Shown in pieces: positions 9,924 to 64,000 of a stretch of 64,000 bases of DNA; the stretch's first letter is position 1, and each line of letters begins with the position of its first letter. Both the position numbers and the translations under genes were made by a program. Below the pieces are notes generated by a model that was given only the letters and a program-made list of their open reading frames with translations, searched no databases and was not told where the DNA came from. Origin of the DNA: Prevotella sp. (GTDB lineage: Bacteria > Bacteroidota > Bacteroidia > Bacteroidales > Bacteroidaceae); the NCBI GenBank assembly GCA_017548605.1, contig JAFYZT010000023.1:1-64000 (forward strand). The letters run 5' to 3'.

Positions 9924-9937
9924 ATACAATAATTGGG

Positions 9938-10334
9938 TGGAGCTGGCGGGAATCGAACCCGCGTCCAAACGAGGAAACCATACGCTTTCTACACGCTTAT
10001 TCCAGACTTGGTTTTCGTGCCGTGGCAAGACCTGGACCACCAACCGCGACCTTATCCCCTAAAATGTCACCGACGCATCGGGGCCTACGCCGACTATTCC
10101 CGATTTGCCTGCGCCGCTGGATCCGGGAGATTCGGGACTACATCCCCGGAGCGACGTCTCGTCCAGCTACCTTGTAACCGGATTGAGCCAGTAATCTACT
10201 ATACTTCGATTAGGCAGCGAGAGCATACTTGTTGTTGCCAATTAATTTTTCGACCGAATGGATTATGGAGTACACAGCCGTCACTCCGCGTGCTTACGTA
10301 CCATTTCTACCCGCTGTCAAATCCAGTCAACCCC
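9938..10334 (-). ncRNA. ssrA: tmRNA (ssrA), proteolysis tag GNNKYALAA
   Basis: The minus strand starts with GGGGTTGACTGGATTTGACA and ends with a T-arm and acceptor (GGTTCGATTCCCGCC then AGCTCCA), the hallmarks of a one-piece tmRNA of about 397 nt. The two ends pair as a 7-bp acceptor stem with two G-T pairs. CCA is not encoded. The tag frame lies at 10210-10239: Gly-Asn-Asn-Lys-Tyr-Ala-Leu-Ala-Ala then TAA, similar to known Bacteroidetes tags ending YALAA. It rescues stalled ribosomes with SmpB and marks products for ClpXP-type proteases. Reading frames on the plus strand here are spurious. Confidence 0.95.
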
Positions 10335-56701: not shown

Positions 56702-58033
56702 TCAATGTAATATCGTGTCAACCACCCAATAGGAGAGCATGCCGGCGATATAACCTACGAAGACTATCCAAGTGATTTTTTTCATATACCATCCGAAGGA
56801 TATTTTCTCCAGACCCATGACCACCACACCGGCGGCAGAGCCGATGATGAGCATCGAGCCACCAACACCGGCACAGTAGGCAAGCAATTGCCAGAAGATA
56901 CCGTCAACAGCCATCGCACCTGATGCCTCCACGGGGTACATACCCATGCAGCCAGCCACAAGCGGCACATTGTCGACAATACTCGACAATACACCGATAA
57001 TACCATTGATAACATAGTAATTTCCAGAGAAAGCAGTGTTCAATCCCTCACCCAGGGCGGTAAGCACGCCTATCTCCTGCAGCACAGCCACAGCCATGAG
57101 GATGCCAAGGAAGAACATGATGGTAGAAAGGTCGATGCGCGAGAGCAGGTCGCTCACACGCTTCGCCATAGTGTCGTCTTCGTCAGTGTTGTAGTGGAAT
57201 ATCTCCGTCACTGTCCACAGCACGCCGAGCACCAGGAGGATACCCATGAACGGCGGCAGATGGGTGAGGGTTTTGAAGATGGGTACGAACACCAATCCGC
57301 CCACACCGAGCCAGAAGATAATGTTACGCTGTTTCTTGGTGAACTGACTCACCTCGGCGGGAGGAAGGTTCTGCGACTTGTCGAACTTTCCCTTAAGTTG
57401 ATATTGCAGAATGAATGCCGGGACAAGCATGGATATGAGCGAGGGGATGAATATCTCGGTGATAACACCCTGCGTAGTGATGACCCCTTTAATCCACAGC
57501 ATGATGGTGGTAACGTCGCCGATAGGCGAGAAGGCACCACCCGAATTGGCGGCGATGATGACCAGTGCGGCATAAATCATTCGGTCCTTACGCTCCTGAA
57601 CCAGTTTGCGAAGCACCATAATCATCACAATCGACGTAGTGAGGTTATCGAGGATGGCCGACAGGAAGAACGTCATGAACGCCATGCGCCACATCAGTTT
57701 GCGCTTCGAGCGTGTTTTCATCACGTCGCGTACGAAGTTGAAACCTCCATTGGAGTCGACTATCTCGACGATGGTCATGGCACCCATCAGGAAGAACAGT
57801 GTTCCCGCAGCATCGCCCAAGTGGTGTTCTATCACCTCCGCTATCTTATGCATCACACCATCGGCGGGGATATCCGGATAGAATGAGCCAGGGGCGAGCA
57901 TCAGCAATGTCCAGCATCCCACACACATGAGTAAGGCGATGGCAGCCTTGTTTACTTTCGTTACACTCTCCAAGGCTATGCACAGGTAGCCTACAATGAA
58001 GACGATAACAATCGCCGTTGTTAATGAAGCCAT
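56702..58033 (-). CDS. nhaD: NhaD-type Na+/H+ antiporter
   Basis: A 443-aa inner-membrane protein with about eleven to twelve helices. NhaD features: GTLFFLMGAMTIVEIVDSNGGF, SAILDNLTTSIVM with the conserved Asp, AANSGGAFSPIGDVTTIMLW and IIGVLSSIVDNVPLVAG. It exports sodium in exchange for protons. It stands alone with a promoter (TATTTTTG on the minus strand at 58068-58075). Confidence 0.93.
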   Translation of the reverse strand: MASLTTAIVIVFIVGYLCIALESVTKVNKAAIALLMCVGCWTLLMLAPGSFYPDIPADGVMHKIAEVIEHHLGDAAGTLFFLMGAMTIVEIVDSNGGFNFVRDVMKTRSKRKLMWRMAFMTFFLSAILDNLTTSIVMIMVLRKLVQERKDRMIYAALVIIAANSGGAFSPIGDVTTIMLWIKGVITTQGVITEIFIPSLISMLVPAFILQYQLKGKFDKSQNLPPAEVSQFTKKQRNIIFWLGVGGLVFVPIFKTLTHLPPFMGILLVLGVLWTVTEIFHYNTDEDDTMAKRVSDLLSRIDLSTIMFFLGILMAVAVLQEIGVLTALGEGLNTAFSGNYYVINGIIGVLSSIVDNVPLVAGCMGMYPVEASGAMAVDGIFWQLLAYCAGVGGSMLIIGSAAGVVVMGLEKISFGWYMKKITWIVFVGYIAGMLSYWVVDTILH

Positions 58034-58067
58034 TGTATATAGATTTTTCCAGTTTAATTTGTTCGTG

Positions 58068-58075
58068 CAAAAATA
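58068..58075 (-). promoter_or_regulatory. -7 box of nhaD
   Basis: TATTTTTG on the minus strand, 35 nt before the start codon. Confidence 0.5.
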
Positions 58076-58107
58076 AGAAAAAGTAGGGAAAAGTCAAAAA
58101 AATAACG

Positions 58108-58115
58108 TATTTTTG
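58108..58115 (+). promoter_or_regulatory. -7 box abutting the DUF6621 start codon
   Basis: TATTTTTG ends 5 nt before the ATG at 58121, so the transcript would have almost no leader. Confidence 0.5.
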
Positions 58116-58120
58116 TGGCC

Positions 58121-58723
58121 ATGAACGAACAAGACAACCTCCAAGCCTCTTGGGCGGAGAACATCATCATCGCCGATGCCGACCACCTCGACCGCGTGGC
58201 CTTTGATCTCACGGTCAACTTCGAACGTATGTTAAACCGTCGTATCCCTCAAGCCGACCTGGCACGATGGATAGACTGCATCGCCTTAGACGGTGGTGTA
58301 CGCGAAGGCGACAACCACACACACGTCATCTTCATCCACAGCAAGGAAAAGACGGCTTTCGACAATTTCGCTCCGAACCATTTTGAGAACAACATCCATG
58401 GCCAAGCCTTTCGCGACAACCTCGGTGAGTTCACACTCTCTGCCATACCCATAGAAACAGGTGTAGGCGGCGAACGACTGTTGTTCGACACCATGTCCCT
58501 CGTATGTCAACAGAAAGAAGTGAAAAGAGTGATGGTGGTAGCCGATGAGGACAAGGAGTGGGATGACTTGCGCCGCCTTCTCCGCGAAATAGACGACGAG
58601 AAACGCATCACCTTGTTCTCCATGCGGCCCATGCCCGGCGGCAACTTCCGCCAAGAGATTCTCGGCTATTCGCTCATGAGTGCCCTCGGCATTCGGGGAG
58701 AGGAACTGGGCGGCATGAAATAA
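58121..58723 (+). CDS. DUF6621 family protein
   Basis: About 200 aa, cytosolic. ATG at 58121 is chosen over GTG at 58115, which overlaps the promoter box. It has ASWAENIIIADADHLDRVAFDLTVNFERMLNRRIPQADL, IHSKEKTAFDNFAPN, GEFTLSAIPIETGVG and FRQEILGYSLMSALG, as in DUF6621 proteins of Bacteroidales. Function is unknown. It is the last gene of the normal-GC part; base composition changes right after it. Confidence 0.85.
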   Translation: MNEQDNLQASWAENIIIADADHLDRVAFDLTVNFERMLNRRIPQADLARWIDCIALDGGVREGDNHTHVIFIHSKEKTAFDNFAPNHFENNIHGQAFRDNLGEFTLSAIPIETGVGGERLLFDTMSLVCQQKEVKRVMVVADEDKEWDDLRRLLREIDDEKRITLFSMRPMPGGNFRQEILGYSLMSALGIRGEELGGMK

Positions 58724-58820
58724 AGGGAGATGGGGGGCTCTTATAGTTGTTTTTTTGTTAATTGTCCTCAAATTCCATAGATTTTTTTCTGTTGTTTTAT
58801 GATTATCACTTTATTATTAT

Positions 58821-58828
58821 TATCTTTG
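58821..58828 (+). promoter_or_regulatory. -7 box at the head of the AT-rich gene block
   Basis: TATCTTTG, 63 nt before the first small reading frame; likely drives the whole block. Confidence 0.45.
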
Positions 58829-58890
58829 TATTCAAAATCTGACAATTCAACTTTAGAATAACGTTGTACCTGAATCCAATTACCTAACCC

Positions 58891-59088
58891 TTGGCAAAAA
58901 CTGCAAGAAACATACTGACCTTGAATCATGAGGAAGCAATGGATTTCTTCATGAGTTCTGATCAATATCATGGATTTGAATTACCTGAGTACTTCACATT
59001 TGATGAAGTCCTAAAATATGTCCGAGAGACAGTTGGAACTACTCCTTATGAGAACCATGCTATCTGTCTAATCCTTTTAAAAGACTAA
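58891..59088 (+). CDS. 65-aa protein, resembles a reverse-transcriptase N-terminus
   Basis: Starts at TTG 58891 (stop codon two codons before; ATG 58939 is the alternative). The sequence ARNILTLNHEEAMDFFMSSD with YHGFELPEYFTFDEVL is close in pattern to the first 40 residues of defence-type reverse transcriptases (EEA-x-x-FF then YFNFDLPxYFxF). It stops after 65 aa, long before any catalytic motif. It is either a truncated remnant or a small independent protein. It is the first of a same-strand set, 18 nt before the next gene. The similarity is from memory and needs a profile search. Confidence 0.4.
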   Translation: MAKTARNILTLNHEEAMDFFMSSDQYHGFELPEYFTFDEVLKYVRETVGTTPYENHAICLILLKD

Positions 59089-59106
59089 TGACCCAAACTC
59101 CGTTAT

Positions 59107-60063
59107 ATGAAAATTAACAACATTACAATTCCACGATGGCTTGATAAGATTATATACGATGATTTTAATGCTGTTTATGAACCTAGACCCGCAGAAGTCG
59201 TATATAATCCAGATCAGTCTTACGATTTTGTAAAGTTGTATCTTGGAACGTATTTTCCGAGGAGTTATGCAGAAGCATATGGAATAACATTACAAATTCT
59301 TTCTATTAAAGGTTTTTTAGAACACTTTATAAAATTGGAGGAAATTAATTTACTTGATTTTTGTTGTGGCACTGGAGGCGAAATTATTGGCACAATTGTG
59401 GCTCTTCAATCCAAACTTCCTAATCTAAAAAGAGTTAATGTTGATGCTTTTGATGCCAATGTTGAAGCAATTCGCTTTTTATATCATCTTATGTCATTAG
59501 TGAACAATGCATCAGAAATGAGAGTTGAAATCATTATTAATCCCCAATGCATCTTTATTGAATCAGAACGGGAAATTAAGGATATTGTTAACCTTTCGAA
59601 TGTGCCATATCATTTTATTATGTCATTCAAAGCTATTAATGAATTTATTCAACATAAGACTTTCAATATGAACGCTTATGAGTTAATTGCTTCTTACCTT
59701 TTACCACTGCTTTCACAACATGGTGTTTTTATTATGTCGGATGTAGCAACAAAGTTAAATGATAGCACTATGTTCTATCCACAAATTATGAATGTCGGAT
59801 TGAATCGTTTTCTCAAGAAAACGTCGCTATATAAAAGTATTATACCGACTGCTTGCTTTAATCATGAAGGAATTTGTATAGGATGTTATATGCAAGATAC
59901 CTTTTATGTTACTCATAGAAAGAAAAATCGAGACATAAGTAAAGTTGCATACAGAGTATTGTGTAAATCCGATTTTGCTACAGAATTACTGGACAACATC
60001 CCAACGAACTCTTGTCGTGCAACAAACCAATTAGCAGATAAAAATTCTCCTTACATTTATTAA
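59107..60063 (+). CDS. Class I methyltransferase-like protein
   Basis: A 318-aa protein. INLLDFCCGTGGEIIG (about residues 80-95) is a SAM-binding motif I, followed by RVNVDAFDANVEAIRFLYHL at the motif II position and FIMSFKAINEFIQ near motif IV. No DNA-methylase NPPY/DPPY motif is seen, so RNA, protein or small-molecule methylation is as likely. N-terminal YEPRPAEVVYNPDQSYDFVKLYLGTYFPRSYAEAY is unrecognised. AT-rich, unlike genes before 58.7 kb. It lies 2 nt before the helicase gene. Confidence 0.65.
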   Translation: MKINNITIPRWLDKIIYDDFNAVYEPRPAEVVYNPDQSYDFVKLYLGTYFPRSYAEAYGITLQILSIKGFLEHFIKLEEINLLDFCCGTGGEIIGTIVALQSKLPNLKRVNVDAFDANVEAIRFLYHLMSLVNNASEMRVEIIINPQCIFIESEREIKDIVNLSNVPYHFIMSFKAINEFIQHKTFNMNAYELIASYLLPLLSQHGVFIMSDVATKLNDSTMFYPQIMNVGLNRFLKKTSLYKSIIPTACFNHEGICIGCYMQDTFYVTHRKKNRDISKVAYRVLCKSDFATELLDNIPTNSCRATNQLADKNSPYIY

Positions 60064-60065
60064 AT

Positions 60066-61082
60066 ATGGCATTAGACAACTTAACCCCAGACCGACATCA
60101 GCAAATAATTATAAACATGTCTGCTGAAAGAACCGCAGTTGTTAAAGGCATTGCAGGTTCTGGTAAATCATTAACCTTGCTTAAGAAGGCTAAGCAAGTA
60201 TCAACTCTGACTAATTCCTATGCTATTATTGTTTACACTAAATCATTGAAACAATTTTTTGTCGATGAATTGACGGAAATAGGTCAAGCCCAGAACCATG
60301 TATATTACTTTAAGGAATGGCAGAAATCGACGAAACCAAATTACAAATATATGTTTATTGATGAGTGCCAAGATTTTAATGCAGAAGAGATTGCAGATTT
60401 CAGAGCACATGGTCAATATTGTTGGTTCTTTGGAGACACATATCAATCGATTATGGAGTTTGAAAGTCATACAGTACAATCGGTGGAAGCTACTGCAAAC
60501 CAAATTGGCGTTCATCCACAAGATCTTTGTATAAATCATAGGCTAACAATAGAAAATGCAAAAGTAGGAGAAGCTATATACCCTCAAACTAGGTTGTCAT
60601 TTGCTTGTATAAAGCATGGGCCAAAACCAAGATTGATAAAGACTGTAGATCAATTGGAAAAAATTATTGAGTTTATAAATGGTGGTTTAACAGATGTCGG
60701 TATTCTTGTTTATTATAATGGCCAAGTTTCATTTATTAGAGACTATTTCCAATCAAAAGGGATTCCAGTACAGTGGAAGACTCAAGACGAAATGGATATT
60801 GATTTTAAGTCAACCAGTCCTAAAATAATAACTTGGCATTGCGCAAAAGGACTTCAGTTCAACGATGTTTTTATTCCTTGTTGTGGTTTGGATGAATATA
60901 AACAATATGTCAGTTGGCCAAGAGATCCGATGACAGAAAAGATATCTGCTCTATATGTCGCGACAACGCGTCCTTTGGAGAATTTGTATTTAATCTATTC
61001 TAATAACTTGGCACCAGTTTTACCTGTTGCTTCCTCTCCCATATATTCGGGAAACACATCAACAGCAAATGGACCTTTCTAA
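60066..61082 (+). CDS. Compact UvrD/Rep-like superfamily 1 helicase
   Basis: A 338-aa protein with the full SF1 set: a Q-like motif (LTPDRHQQIIINM), Walker A GIAGSGKS (Lys34), Walker B FIDECQDF (Asp99-Glu100), motif III FFGDTYQSI, motif IV NHRLT (Arg159), motif V AKGLQFNDVFIP and motif VI LYVATTRPLENLYLIY. It lacks the large 1B/2B inserts of UvrD, about half its length. It may act as a DNA or RNA motor or switch within the block. It follows the methyltransferase-like gene by 2 nt. Confidence 0.85.
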   Translation: MALDNLTPDRHQQIIINMSAERTAVVKGIAGSGKSLTLLKKAKQVSTLTNSYAIIVYTKSLKQFFVDELTEIGQAQNHVYYFKEWQKSTKPNYKYMFIDECQDFNAEEIADFRAHGQYCWFFGDTYQSIMEFESHTVQSVEATANQIGVHPQDLCINHRLTIENAKVGEAIYPQTRLSFACIKHGPKPRLIKTVDQLEKIIEFINGGLTDVGILVYYNGQVSFIRDYFQSKGIPVQWKTQDEMDIDFKSTSPKIITWHCAKGLQFNDVFIPCCGLDEYKQYVSWPRDPMTEKISALYVATTRPLENLYLIYSNNLAPVLPVASSPIYSGNTSTANGPF

Positions 61083-61094
61083 AAACACCTCAAT

Positions 61095-63314
61095 ATGAAA
61101 TTCTATATTCCGACATCAAATCTTAATCTGGATAATATACTTCAATCCGAGTGTATTCTTCCTTTTTCACATTACTCACGTAGGTGCTCAGGTTATAATT
61201 CTTTTGAGCAGATAGAAGAACTACGTTCTTTCGACGCTATAGTCCTTTTTAAATATCCTGTACAATTTCAGATTAACGATACAGGAAGGTATAATTTCCC
61301 TATGCTAATTGAGCTGGAAGATGATAATCAGACCTTTGATTTCTCAGATAAAGAAATTCAAGAGGGTGTGTGTCTATGCAACCATCGTCTTAATTTAACA
61401 CCTTTGAATAGTAGATTTTATTTCTTTACAGAAAGTACTTATAGGCTAACCTTAATTAACACCGAAAGCAACAAAGCAATAAAGTATTTCAAGGAATATA
61501 AGATTTATCCTACTGCGTCTATGCTTAAACCTGTAAAGTTACCTCATTTAAACAAAATGTCTATTGAGATTTCAAAATTTGAGGATAATTTTATAGATAA
61601 ACAAAAGGGGCTTCTCTATGCGTTTATGCTAGGAAGTAAGATGTCAGTAAACCGAGATTTGGCAAGACAACTTCGATTAACTCAGGAGTTATACAATATT
61701 CTAACAAATCTTATCTCTTCTCCTTCAAGTATTCCATCATTTGATACCAAACTAAACAATCTAATCAATGAATATAAGCAAGTCGATTCTGTAGAAAAGA
61801 AAAGCCAAAAAGTGTTTCAAGAGAAATTTGATGCGGCATTGGGAAAGCGTTTTCTTTTTCTAAAAGGGTATTTGATTGATTTTCTAAAGAAAATCGATTG
61901 TTGGGATCTTGTTTGGGATGCACTATGCAGGAAATGGAATTGCTCTTTTCTTACCGACATTTCAAAATTTAAAACGGGAGGCGATTTTTCATCGCTCCGC
62001 AATGAAATTGAGCGAAGGACGCAACTTGCCACGTCAGAATATTCAAGTAGCATTTCTTATGAGAACATGAATAATATTTATATTTCTGGAGATTATATTT
62101 TATTCACAGAGGCAAGACTTGTCAATGTTGTTATTAAGTATATAATAGATAATTCTATAACCCCTGAGACTCTTTTGGCACAAAGGATGAATTTTTACAT
62201 GAGCGTAATGTCTGAAATTGTATCTATCCTTAAAGTTGAAATGGGAGAACTTAAATGGAAGGAATCTGAAGAGAAAGCCTATGTTAATAGCTTATATGCG
62301 TTTATCAATGACCCAACTTTTTCATTTAACCTAAATGGAATAGATAATTTGGAATTAAAATCCATAGCAGCTTTTATACTAAAAGGTCATAGTTTCAAAG
62401 ATTGTGTCATATATCTTAGGAATAACGAGTTCCAAGATTACCGCTTTGTATTGTCTCTTTGGGGATGTTTATGTGGTTATATGGAAATGAACAAAGAGGC
62501 TTTGTCTAAAGTATTAACAATGGGTGTTTATGAACTTGCATATAAAAAACTTTTTGGTTCGGAATTGGCTAAAATCACTCAAGTATCATTACCTCCTCAA
62601 GTATTGGAAAGAAATTCATTGGATTTGGACTTTTATCGGCAAATACTCACTGTATTCAAGTATAAGGATTTGGAAGAACTAATCAATAATTTGAAAAGGC
62701 AGAATCCTTCTGAGGACAATATAGAAATATGTTTAAATAGTGTGTTGGCCGAAAGCCCATTCAAAAAGGCGCGTAAACAATGTGCAAATGCGTGTCAAGC
62801 ATTGAAAATATACCTAAATAGAGAGAATAAAACTGTAATTACAGGAATTATCGAGAATACAGACTTGTCAAAATCTGGTAAAAAGGCCATCCTTTCTTTA
62901 TTGGGTTTTGACGAGCCTAAACAAAGAAAAAACGCGAGAAAGACAGCAGAACAAGCCTATTTGTTTCCAAATTTGGGTACAAATAGTGAAATAAGTAGCA
63001 TTACTAAGACATCAGACCTATTTGTTGATGACATGAATGCTGCAAATTACATCTGGAGTCGCAGTTACCTCCCAAAGGAAGTACGGGATATATTGAGAAA
63101 AAAAATCCTTTCTTTCCAAGCTGACTATGCACCAGATGGTTACTATTATAAAAACAATCCAAGAACGAATGATAACACGATTAATCATTTTATTCGTAAA
63201 TGTACATACCAAAAGGAACATAGTCCTTATCCATCTTGGATTCCTGCAACGAATGAAAACAAGAATCTTCTAGAACGATTGAAAACAGAATTATACGAAC
63301 GTTATGCCAACTGA
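61095..63314 (+). CDS. 739-aa protein of unknown function
   Basis: No family recognised. It starts MKFYIPTSNLNLDNILQSEC and has an N-terminal beta-rich part (about 1-150, RSFDAIVLFKYPVQFQI, SRFYFFTESTYRLTLI), a long helical middle (about 160-640) and a charged C-terminus ending LYERYAN. No signal peptide, membrane helix, Walker or nuclease motif is evident. It is 12 nt after the helicase gene and overlaps the next gene by 11 nt, so it is a fixed part of the block. It is probably the partner or effector; that is inference. Confidence 0.7.
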   Translation: MKFYIPTSNLNLDNILQSECILPFSHYSRRCSGYNSFEQIEELRSFDAIVLFKYPVQFQINDTGRYNFPMLIELEDDNQTFDFSDKEIQEGVCLCNHRLNLTPLNSRFYFFTESTYRLTLINTESNKAIKYFKEYKIYPTASMLKPVKLPHLNKMSIEISKFEDNFIDKQKGLLYAFMLGSKMSVNRDLARQLRLTQELYNILTNLISSPSSIPSFDTKLNNLINEYKQVDSVEKKSQKVFQEKFDAALGKRFLFLKGYLIDFLKKIDCWDLVWDALCRKWNCSFLTDISKFKTGGDFSSLRNEIERRTQLATSEYSSSISYENMNNIYISGDYILFTEARLVNVVIKYIIDNSITPETLLAQRMNFYMSVMSEIVSILKVEMGELKWKESEEKAYVNSLYAFINDPTFSFNLNGIDNLELKSIAAFILKGHSFKDCVIYLRNNEFQDYRFVLSLWGCLCGYMEMNKEALSKVLTMGVYELAYKKLFGSELAKITQVSLPPQVLERNSLDLDFYRQILTVFKYKDLEELINNLKRQNPSEDNIEICLNSVLAESPFKKARKQCANACQALKIYLNRENKTVITGIIENTDLSKSGKKAILSLLGFDEPKQRKNARKTAEQAYLFPNLGTNSEISSITKTSDLFVDDMNAANYIWSRSYLPKEVRDILRKKILSFQADYAPDGYYYKNNPRTNDNTINHFIRKCTYQKEHSPYPSWIPATNENKNLLERLKTELYERYAN

Positions 63315-64000
63315 TAAAATCCTTATAAAAACGGATGCTGATGAGCAAGTTGAAGCCACTGCTCCTGTCATTATCTCAGCCAGTCGTTCTACCGATATTC
63401 CTGCTTTTTATGCCAAGTGGTTTTTCAACCGCTTAGCTAAAGGGTATTGTACTTGGTACAATCCGTTCAACATCAATCAAAAGATGTATATCTCTTTTGA
63501 ACGGTGTAGAGTTATAGTATTCTGGACAAAGAATCCTGGGCCAATCATCCCCTATCTGCCAGAACTAGATAAGAGAGGGATACATTATTACTTTCAAGTA
63601 ACGTTGAATGACTATGTAAAAGAGAGGTTCGAACCGAATGTACCTTCTGTAGATAAACGCGTGGAAACATTCAAAACCTTATCGAATCTTATTGGCAAAG
63701 AGAAGGTGATATGGCGATTTGACCCTCTTATTATCACACCAAACATAGGACCGAGAGAGTTGTTGACAAGAATATGGAATGTTGGTAACAAACTGAAGGG
63801 ATTTACTGACAAGTTGGTGTTTAGCTTTGTGGATGTAAAGGCATATCGTAAAGTTCAGAATAATCTTGTAAAGGAGACAATGCTCTTTACAAAGGAAGAT
63901 GTCGAAAACGCTGAGGCCAATTATGCACAGCGAATCGAAATAGTAGGAGGCCTAAAGAAGATTCGAGAAGCGTGGTATAAAGACGGATGGGATGTCAAGA
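63304..64000 (+). CDS. DUF1848 protein, 3' end beyond the window
   Basis: 232 codons visible, starting ATG 63304 inside the end of the previous gene. After a short acidic lead it reads VIISASRSTDIPAFYAKWFFNRL, GYCTWYNPFNINQKMYISF, VIVFWTKNPGPIIPYLPELDKRG, YYFQVTLNDY and VIWRFDPLIITP, the DUF1848 pattern. The family is related to spore photoproduct lyase-like radical-SAM proteins; the expected Cys cluster would be beyond 64000 and cannot be checked. Substrate is unknown. Confidence 0.82.
   Translation, partial: MPTDKILIKTDADEQVEATAPVIISASRSTDIPAFYAKWFFNRLAKGYCTWYNPFNINQKMYISFERCRVIVFWTKNPGPIIPYLPELDKRGIHYYFQVTLNDYVKERFEPNVPSVDKRVETFKTLSNLIGKEKVIWRFDPLIITPNIGPRELLTRIWNVGNKLKGFTDKLVFSFVDVKAYRKVQNNLVKETMLFTKEDVENAEANYAQRIEIVGGLKKIREAWYKDGWDVK

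Follow-up and report, generated by a model that had tools for sequence, protein, structure and literature searches.

A mobile, part-exchanging operon of methyltransferase-like, helicase, DUF1848 and large unassigned proteins in Prevotella as a candidate defence module

The first 64,000 nucleotides of contig JAFYZT010000023.1 from a Prevotella sp. genome (assembly GCA_017548605.1), here called the window, end in an AT-rich operon of four same-strand genes. These encode a methyltransferase-like protein (MT), a compact superfamily 1 (SF1) helicase (HEL), a large protein without a known family (U) and a DUF1848 protein (Table 1). In this study, we found related gene sets at many other loci, and the view that these genes make up a mobile module, exchanging its parts and under purifying selection, is well supported. 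The frame list bears out the strand and spacing given by the first-pass annotation (gaps of 18, 2 and 12 nt, then an 11-nt overlap). The drop in base composition is also real, with 32-39% guanine plus cytosine (GC) over the four genes versus 50.2% over window positions 1-58700. That annotation had drawn a block of five genes at 58738..64000. The AT-rich block itself stands, but the operon proper starts at 59107, the AT-rich stretch runs to about 67.4 kb, and the supposed fifth member, a 65-amino-acid (aa) frame resembling a reverse transcriptase (RT), is an N-terminal stub and not a member. The window end cuts the DUF1848 frame, which is present in full on the same contig. An Rfam scan of 57000-64000 gave no match, and scans for terminators (0 found vs a shuffle mean of 2.9) and promoters (27 vs 22.9) were uninformative.

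Table 1. Features of the operon and the frame preceding it, in window coordinates
Feature	Coordinates	Strand	Remark
RT stub, 65 aa	58891..59088	+	Remnant of an Abi-P2 type reverse transcriptase, outside the system
MT, methyltransferase-like, 318 aa	59107..60063	+	Motif DFCCGTGG; without [DNS]PP[YFW]
HEL, compact SF1 helicase, 338 aa	60066..61082	+	PF01443, UvrD_C, helicase motifs
U, 739 aa, no known family	61095..63314	+	Invariant N-terminal E19, P23, Y27, R30, G33
U C-terminal part	63055..63314	+	Exchanged independently of the rest of U; DNA similarity to locus L038 begins here
DUF1848 gene, 351 aa	63304..64000 in the window, complete to contig position 64359	+	PF08902; C-terminal CxxxCxxC

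The earlier assignment of a methyltransferase-like protein, an SF1 motor and a large partner of no known family was upheld by motif and profile searches. Motif I (D-x-x-x-G-[TM]-G-G) was found by motif scan in all 18 MT copies, the window's included, and a cysteine cluster is present in 11 of the 18. The Pfam methyltransferase match of the window MT is below the cut-off, and that of the MT at locus L040 is just above it (27.4 bits vs 27). In L039 and L040, MT carries a fused NERD nuclease-related domain (PF08378, E 1.6e-8 each), and the MT of L045, which was outside the NERD scan, is 92% identical to that of L039. HEL matches PF01443 (E 7.1e-14) and UvrD_C (E 4.6e-10) in Pfam, and HelD, PcrA, UvrD and GajB in a PDB profile search. 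All 22 HEL copies contain GxAGSGK[ST] and a DExQD box, and the later motifs, sought with looser patterns, were found in 16, 20 and 19 of the 22. For the window U, no family was found at E 1 in Pfam, PADLOC or NCBIfam or at E 0.01 in PHROGs, and the best PDB match has an E of 2.3. For some of its diverged relatives there were Pfam matches (E 0.014-0.049), all of them below the cut-off and differing from one relative to the next. U diverges fastest of the four, with a mean pairwise identity of 26% over 18 loci, and the residues identical in 22/22 copies are K130, G172, G457 and G461 in addition to the five N-terminal ones in Table 1. A loose LF pattern in the later part of U, with at least one match in 17 of the 22 copies, had no control computed and is not used here. 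An ADP-ribosyltransferase-like reading of the N-terminus of U was set aside. In the search of the proteins against PADLOC proposed by the first-pass annotation, MT and U matched no PADLOC-DB 2.0.0 (2023) profile at E 1, DefenseFinder being outside this search.

The full DUF1848 protein matches PF08902 at E 4.1e-91. Seven cysteines are invariant across a 34-row alignment of DUF1848 proteins, and three of them (C318, C322 and C325 in L002 numbering) make up the CxxxCxxC near the C-terminus. The presence of this cluster motif in all 34 proteins is consistent with the earlier description of a protein related to radical S-adenosylmethionine (SAM) enzymes. In radical-SAM domains CxxxCxxC is usually found near the N-terminus, and the match of the CxxxCxxC stretch to a radical-SAM methylthiotransferase profile was not significant (E 0.95).

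The 65-aa frame upstream of MT matches PADLOC AbiP2 with an E of 8.6e-13 at profile positions 2-54 of 489. It has matches in 9/151 family genomes, own genome included; of its eight non-self matches, seven are to frames 505-574 aa long and one is to a 44-aa frame, and the alignment to the 505-574-aa frames covers residues 1-55 at most. Because it matches only the first ~55 residues of RTs that are mostly 505-574 aa long, it is a truncated remnant. The frame was rejected as a working member of the operon, as an intact reverse transcriptase is not present and only about the first 55 residues are left.

Searches with U, together with viral-contig searches using DUF1848 and HEL, gave 22 distinct loci containing U: the window, L002, L004-L006, L014-L017, L034-L045 and L083. 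Two further records, L003 (nearly a copy of L002) and L082 (the same locus as L045), were not counted separately. Since most of these loci came from searches with U, the following counts are conditional on U. HEL adjoins U in 22/22 loci, and MT and DUF1848 both accompany HEL-U in 19, including L014, where the cassette has decayed, the MT frame being 94 aa long and DUF1848 broken into two frames. Eighteen of these 19 have the order MT-HEL-U-DUF1848, and L017 has MT-DUF1848-HEL-U; an additional gene lies 5' of DUF1848 in L015 (273 aa) and L041 (825 aa). The first-pass annotation had proposed repeated co-occurrence of the four large genes as a sign of a system, and it is seen here at 19 distinct loci, in different genera and on mobile DNA. 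The cassette is sparse, being found in 4/393 order genomes, 4/395 phylum genomes and 8/201 family genomes (own genome included each time; 1-4%). Carriers include B. faecalis and B. xylanisolvens (L002, L003; the latter from strain XB1A), where recombinase- and mobilization-type frames, named from their translations and not by profile search, lie upstream. The cassette is also present on a phage-database record that has no annotation (L044) and on a contig from IMG/VR (L045), while searches with U in plasmids and directly in viral contigs found none.

On contig 13 of the own genome there is another cassette, which is very divergent (L043; U at 36.8 bits). At L043:6221-14173 (contig 13, 146000-162000) this cassette adjoins a gene for a 999-aa coiled-coil-like protein and an AlbA_2 gene, and a relative of the 999-aa protein at L006 has DUF6035 and CoiA_nuc matches.

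The window cassette sits inside an insertion of ~8.7 kb, and 21 relatives show the empty site. DUF6621, on one side of the insert, was found in 23/30 genus genomes, and the gene 3' of the insert, saccharopine-dehydrogenase-like as read from sequence, in 29/30. Both flank genes are carried by 22 relatives, 12-188 bp apart in 21 and on different contigs in one, whereas in the own genome DUF6621 and the next flank gene are 8738 bp apart. By gene, the GC content of the insert is 32-43%, versus 50% for window 1-58700 and 54% just past the insert. No exact direct repeats of at least 10 bp were found between the two insert ends. The other cargo includes genes for AbiH (PF14253, E 1.7e-38), a DUF1016/YhcG nuclease (PF06250, E 1.1e-57) and a helix-turn-helix (HTH) protein, as well as a frame of 108 aa that has a Fic-like_C domain. 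This frame resembles the C-terminus of a Schlafen-type gene adjoining the L044 cassette (34% over 73 aa) and, because of this likeness, may be a remnant of such a gene. Far from the insert, the window contains a tmRNA gene on the minus strand (9936-10334, tag GNNKYALAA).

Comparison of cassette pairs indicates that their parts move separately. L006, from a Prevotellaceae genome, and L043 occupy the same chromosomal place with flanks of 85-91% identical DNA; the similarity breaks off ~90 bp into the MT frame and returns 33 bp into DUF1848, and between these breakpoints there is no blastn match at E 1e-10. Similarly, L002 and L040 share DNA similarity (76-80%) up to 232 bp 5' of MT and again from 40 bp inside DUF1848. 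The window and L038 are similar (74.8%) only over the last 260 bp of U through DUF1848, besides a 230-bp stretch further on, and their U proteins are 26% identical over the whole alignment. Between the window and L002, similarity covers MT, HEL and stretches of U as far as about codon 470, and it returns only at DUF1848. At least three units therefore move: the MT-HEL-U body, the U C-terminal domain and DUF1848. In these alignments, MT-HEL-U is exchanged as a block while DUF1848 stays, and the C-terminal domain of U is also swapped separately. Pairwise identities over 18 loci correlate strongly between HEL and U (r 0.88), MT and U (0.83) and MT and HEL (0.74), with 0/2000 permutations each, and weakly between DUF1848 and MT (0.28; 1/2000 permutations), HEL (0.21; 63/2000) or U (0.20; 69/2000). 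All four genes are under purifying selection in three locus pairs: the ratio of nonsynonymous to synonymous substitution rates (dN/dS) is 0.04-0.25 in 11 of 12 gene comparisons, five of these 11 having dS >1.5, and the twelfth has infinite dS.

Several cassettes have defence-type neighbours. At least 9 of the 19 have a Schlafen-type AlbA_2-HATPase gene no more than 2.3 kb away (L002, L004, L006, L038, L039, L040, L043, L044 and L045); the AlbA_2 profile scan covered the loci where such a gene had been noticed, with the neighbours of the other 10 cassettes outside it. One BREX study describes genes of this type as widely spread across BREX loci (PMC12839542). In L034, genes for PglX (PADLOC 1181 bits) and PglZ (833 bits) flank the HEL-U pair, separated from it by two and four further frames, and the whole PglX-HEL-U-PglZ stretch spans L034:2176-15757 (G468 contig 4). 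On the viral contig of L083 (7467-12233), HEL-U is followed by a 76-aa frame and a CxxxCxxC protein, an arrangement reminiscent, by eye, of a peptide-modification cluster.

DUF1848 is also found outside the cassette, in 24/149 order genomes and 0/14 control genomes. Among 37 viral-contig DUF1848 loci there is one full cassette, and three have a HEL-like neighbour, two of which (L050, L051) look like copies of one element. In L050, an 836-aa protein encoded 3' of DUF1848 has a methyltransferase-like start (Pfam E 0.022, below the cut-off) and an SF1 helicase end, and by these matches it would be a second link among methyltransferase, helicase and DUF1848 activities. DUF1848 and the 836-aa protein span L050:9959-13573, and of the two copies only that in L050 was translated and scanned. 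L151:460-5992 (G065 contig 29) contains DUF1848, a 388-aa HEL-like gene and 591-aa and 517-aa proteins without a PADLOC match, and is perhaps a parallel system with a different partner. Upstream of the cassette in L005 (1-1704) lie the end of another HEL-like gene and a 461-aa protein of no known family. Homology of U to the look-alike partners near the HEL-like genes of L151 and L005 was not detectable. At L152 a methyltransferase-like neighbour of DUF1848 was seen, by eye only.

Considering these results, we give a probability of about 0.6 that the genes at 59107-64359 act against phages or mobile elements as a module that itself moves horizontally and consists of a HEL-U core and an MT/DUF1848 arm. 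A defence role is the best reading of the sparseness, mobility, allele exchange and setting of the cassette, and we infer a nucleic-acid substrate. The core would be a helicase-effector pair, in which HEL would serve as a minimal SF1 motor and the effector would be U, a large protein that diverges fast and has an invariant N-terminal E..P..Y..R..G signature and a swappable C-terminal domain. MT and DUF1848, together present or together absent, would form a linked second arm that lays down or repairs a chemical mark by methyl transfer (MT) and radical chemistry (DUF1848), the target being nucleic acid or a component of the machine. HEL-U would then engage foreign or stressed nucleic acid and execute the response, and the MT/DUF1848 arm would set which molecules are spared or activated. 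That MT serves in this way to tell self from non-self is possible but on balance doubtful.

Several observations weigh against a four-gene defence module. HEL-U occurs without MT and DUF1848 in 3/22 loci (L034, L035, L083), and a strict restriction-modification logic fails there because MT is absent, unless another methyltransferase serves; PglX lies near the pair in L034, and L035 and L083 have none by the MT profile, the only methyltransferase family searched for at these two. The motif scan found [DNS]PP[YFW] in none of 18 MT copies (with isoleucine also allowed at the second position, it gave one NIPY, at the C-terminus of the L002 MT), so MT is not a usual DNA amino-methyltransferase. Of 20 non-cassette DUF1848 loci, several of which end at contig ends, none has U, one has MT (L155) and two have a HEL-like gene (L151, L164), with MT, HEL and U scored by profile. 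The first-pass annotation had asked whether homologues of the four genes are scattered, and this is so in part: all four are together in most of the loci with U, but DUF1848 is often alone and HEL-U can lack the other two. MT is not strictly matched to HEL-U. The MT of L043 is 54-61% identical to the L016/L015 type (61% to L015), with HEL at 30-32% and U at 18-20%; L017 and L039 are 60% identical in HEL, 22% in U and 31% in MT; and L040 and L044 are 89%, 44% and 47% identical in HEL, U and MT, respectively. The C-terminal similarity of U follows that of the U body (r 0.33) somewhat more closely than that of DUF1848 (r 0.23), and the defence-neighbour figures are plain counts without a background set.

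Alternatively, HEL-U alone may be the defence system, with MT and DUF1848 a separate repair or modification pair that is commonly co-mobilised into the same slot. The three loci without MT and DUF1848, the identity correlation of HEL and U, which is the highest of all, and the frequently solitary DUF1848 would all fit this view. However, 19 of the 22 loci have MT as well as DUF1848, in two gene orders, and L050 has a methyltransferase-like/helicase fusion beside DUF1848, and we regard such a division as unlikely.

A toxin-antitoxin-like or abortive module, in which U (or a NERD-MT) would poison the host and be kept in check by the other proteins until infection, seems still less probable. The fast divergence of U, the NERD fusion to MT and the HTH- and ImmA-like frames (named from translations) 5' of HEL-U in L035 are what such a module might show, but the window U matches no family in the searched libraries and no small partner gene conserved among the cassettes came to notice, though no search aimed at one was made. 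Just as improbable is a non-defence operon for nucleic-acid repair or RNA modification that is spread by mobile elements. In some genomes solitary DUF1848 genes lie among housekeeping-type genes (read from translations), and HEL is similar to HelD and UvrD; against this, the cassette is sparse, exchanges alleles, has defence-type neighbours and is carried on mobile DNA.

A further reading of the four-gene defence module is that, with allele-like exchange of MT-HEL-U at a constant DUF1848, one fixed enzyme would serve many variable recognition-effector blocks, which may be likened to the fixed and variable subunits of other immune systems. It is tentative, and rather unlikely in our estimate, that a constant radical-SAM enzyme with an exchangeable MT-HEL-U allele cassette represents a new defence design and U a new effector family. 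If the module protects against phages, it would add a four-gene system matched to no named one, with U as a large effector family unnamed in the searched libraries and with a first proposed role for DUF1848. The natural block exchanges offer ready-made allele pairs for asking which part sets specificity. No mention of DUF1848, alone or with phage, was found in the open-access library searched, which does not cover subscription papers and outside preprints, and no description of such a gene set was found in the accessible part of the wider open-access literature.

As the first-pass annotation had stated, no named system with this gene set was matched among the systems and libraries searched, although partial likenesses exist. 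Like Gabija, the cassette pairs a compact UvrD-like SF1 helicase with a larger partner, and the PADLOC profile that HEL matches best is a GajB one (E 5e-12, 43 bits), the GajB matches covering only parts of HEL. Unlike Gabija, U has no GajA match (no PADLOC or Pfam profile at E 1), and MT and DUF1848 are extra. The RT-associated genes of PADLOC (RTasDUF1848, RTasHel, AbiP2) include DUF1848 and helicase profiles, and an Abi-P2 stub lies directly upstream here; however, the window operon has no intact RT. BREX, DISARM and other methyltransferase-helicase systems likewise combine a methyltransferase, a helicase and a large partner, and the HEL-U of L034 is near PglX and PglZ. In contrast to these systems, MT and U match no PADLOC profile, DUF1848 matches only RTasDUF1848, no BREX or DISARM part is among the 25 best of 41 profiles matching HEL, and the cassette MT is without the DNA amino-methyltransferase motif. 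Neither PglZ nor PglX/BrxX is among the PADLOC matches listed for the window cassette and insert genes, which for HEL and for the DUF1016 gene are the best 25; elsewhere they were sought only near L034, where both are present. Membership of Gabija, BREX or an RT system was thus rejected, there being no GajA match for U, no PglZ or PglX among the matches listed and no intact RT. The Schlafen-type AlbA_2-HATPase genes of defence islands are neighbours of the cassettes and not core members, and the island in the window has only the short frame resembling their C-terminus.

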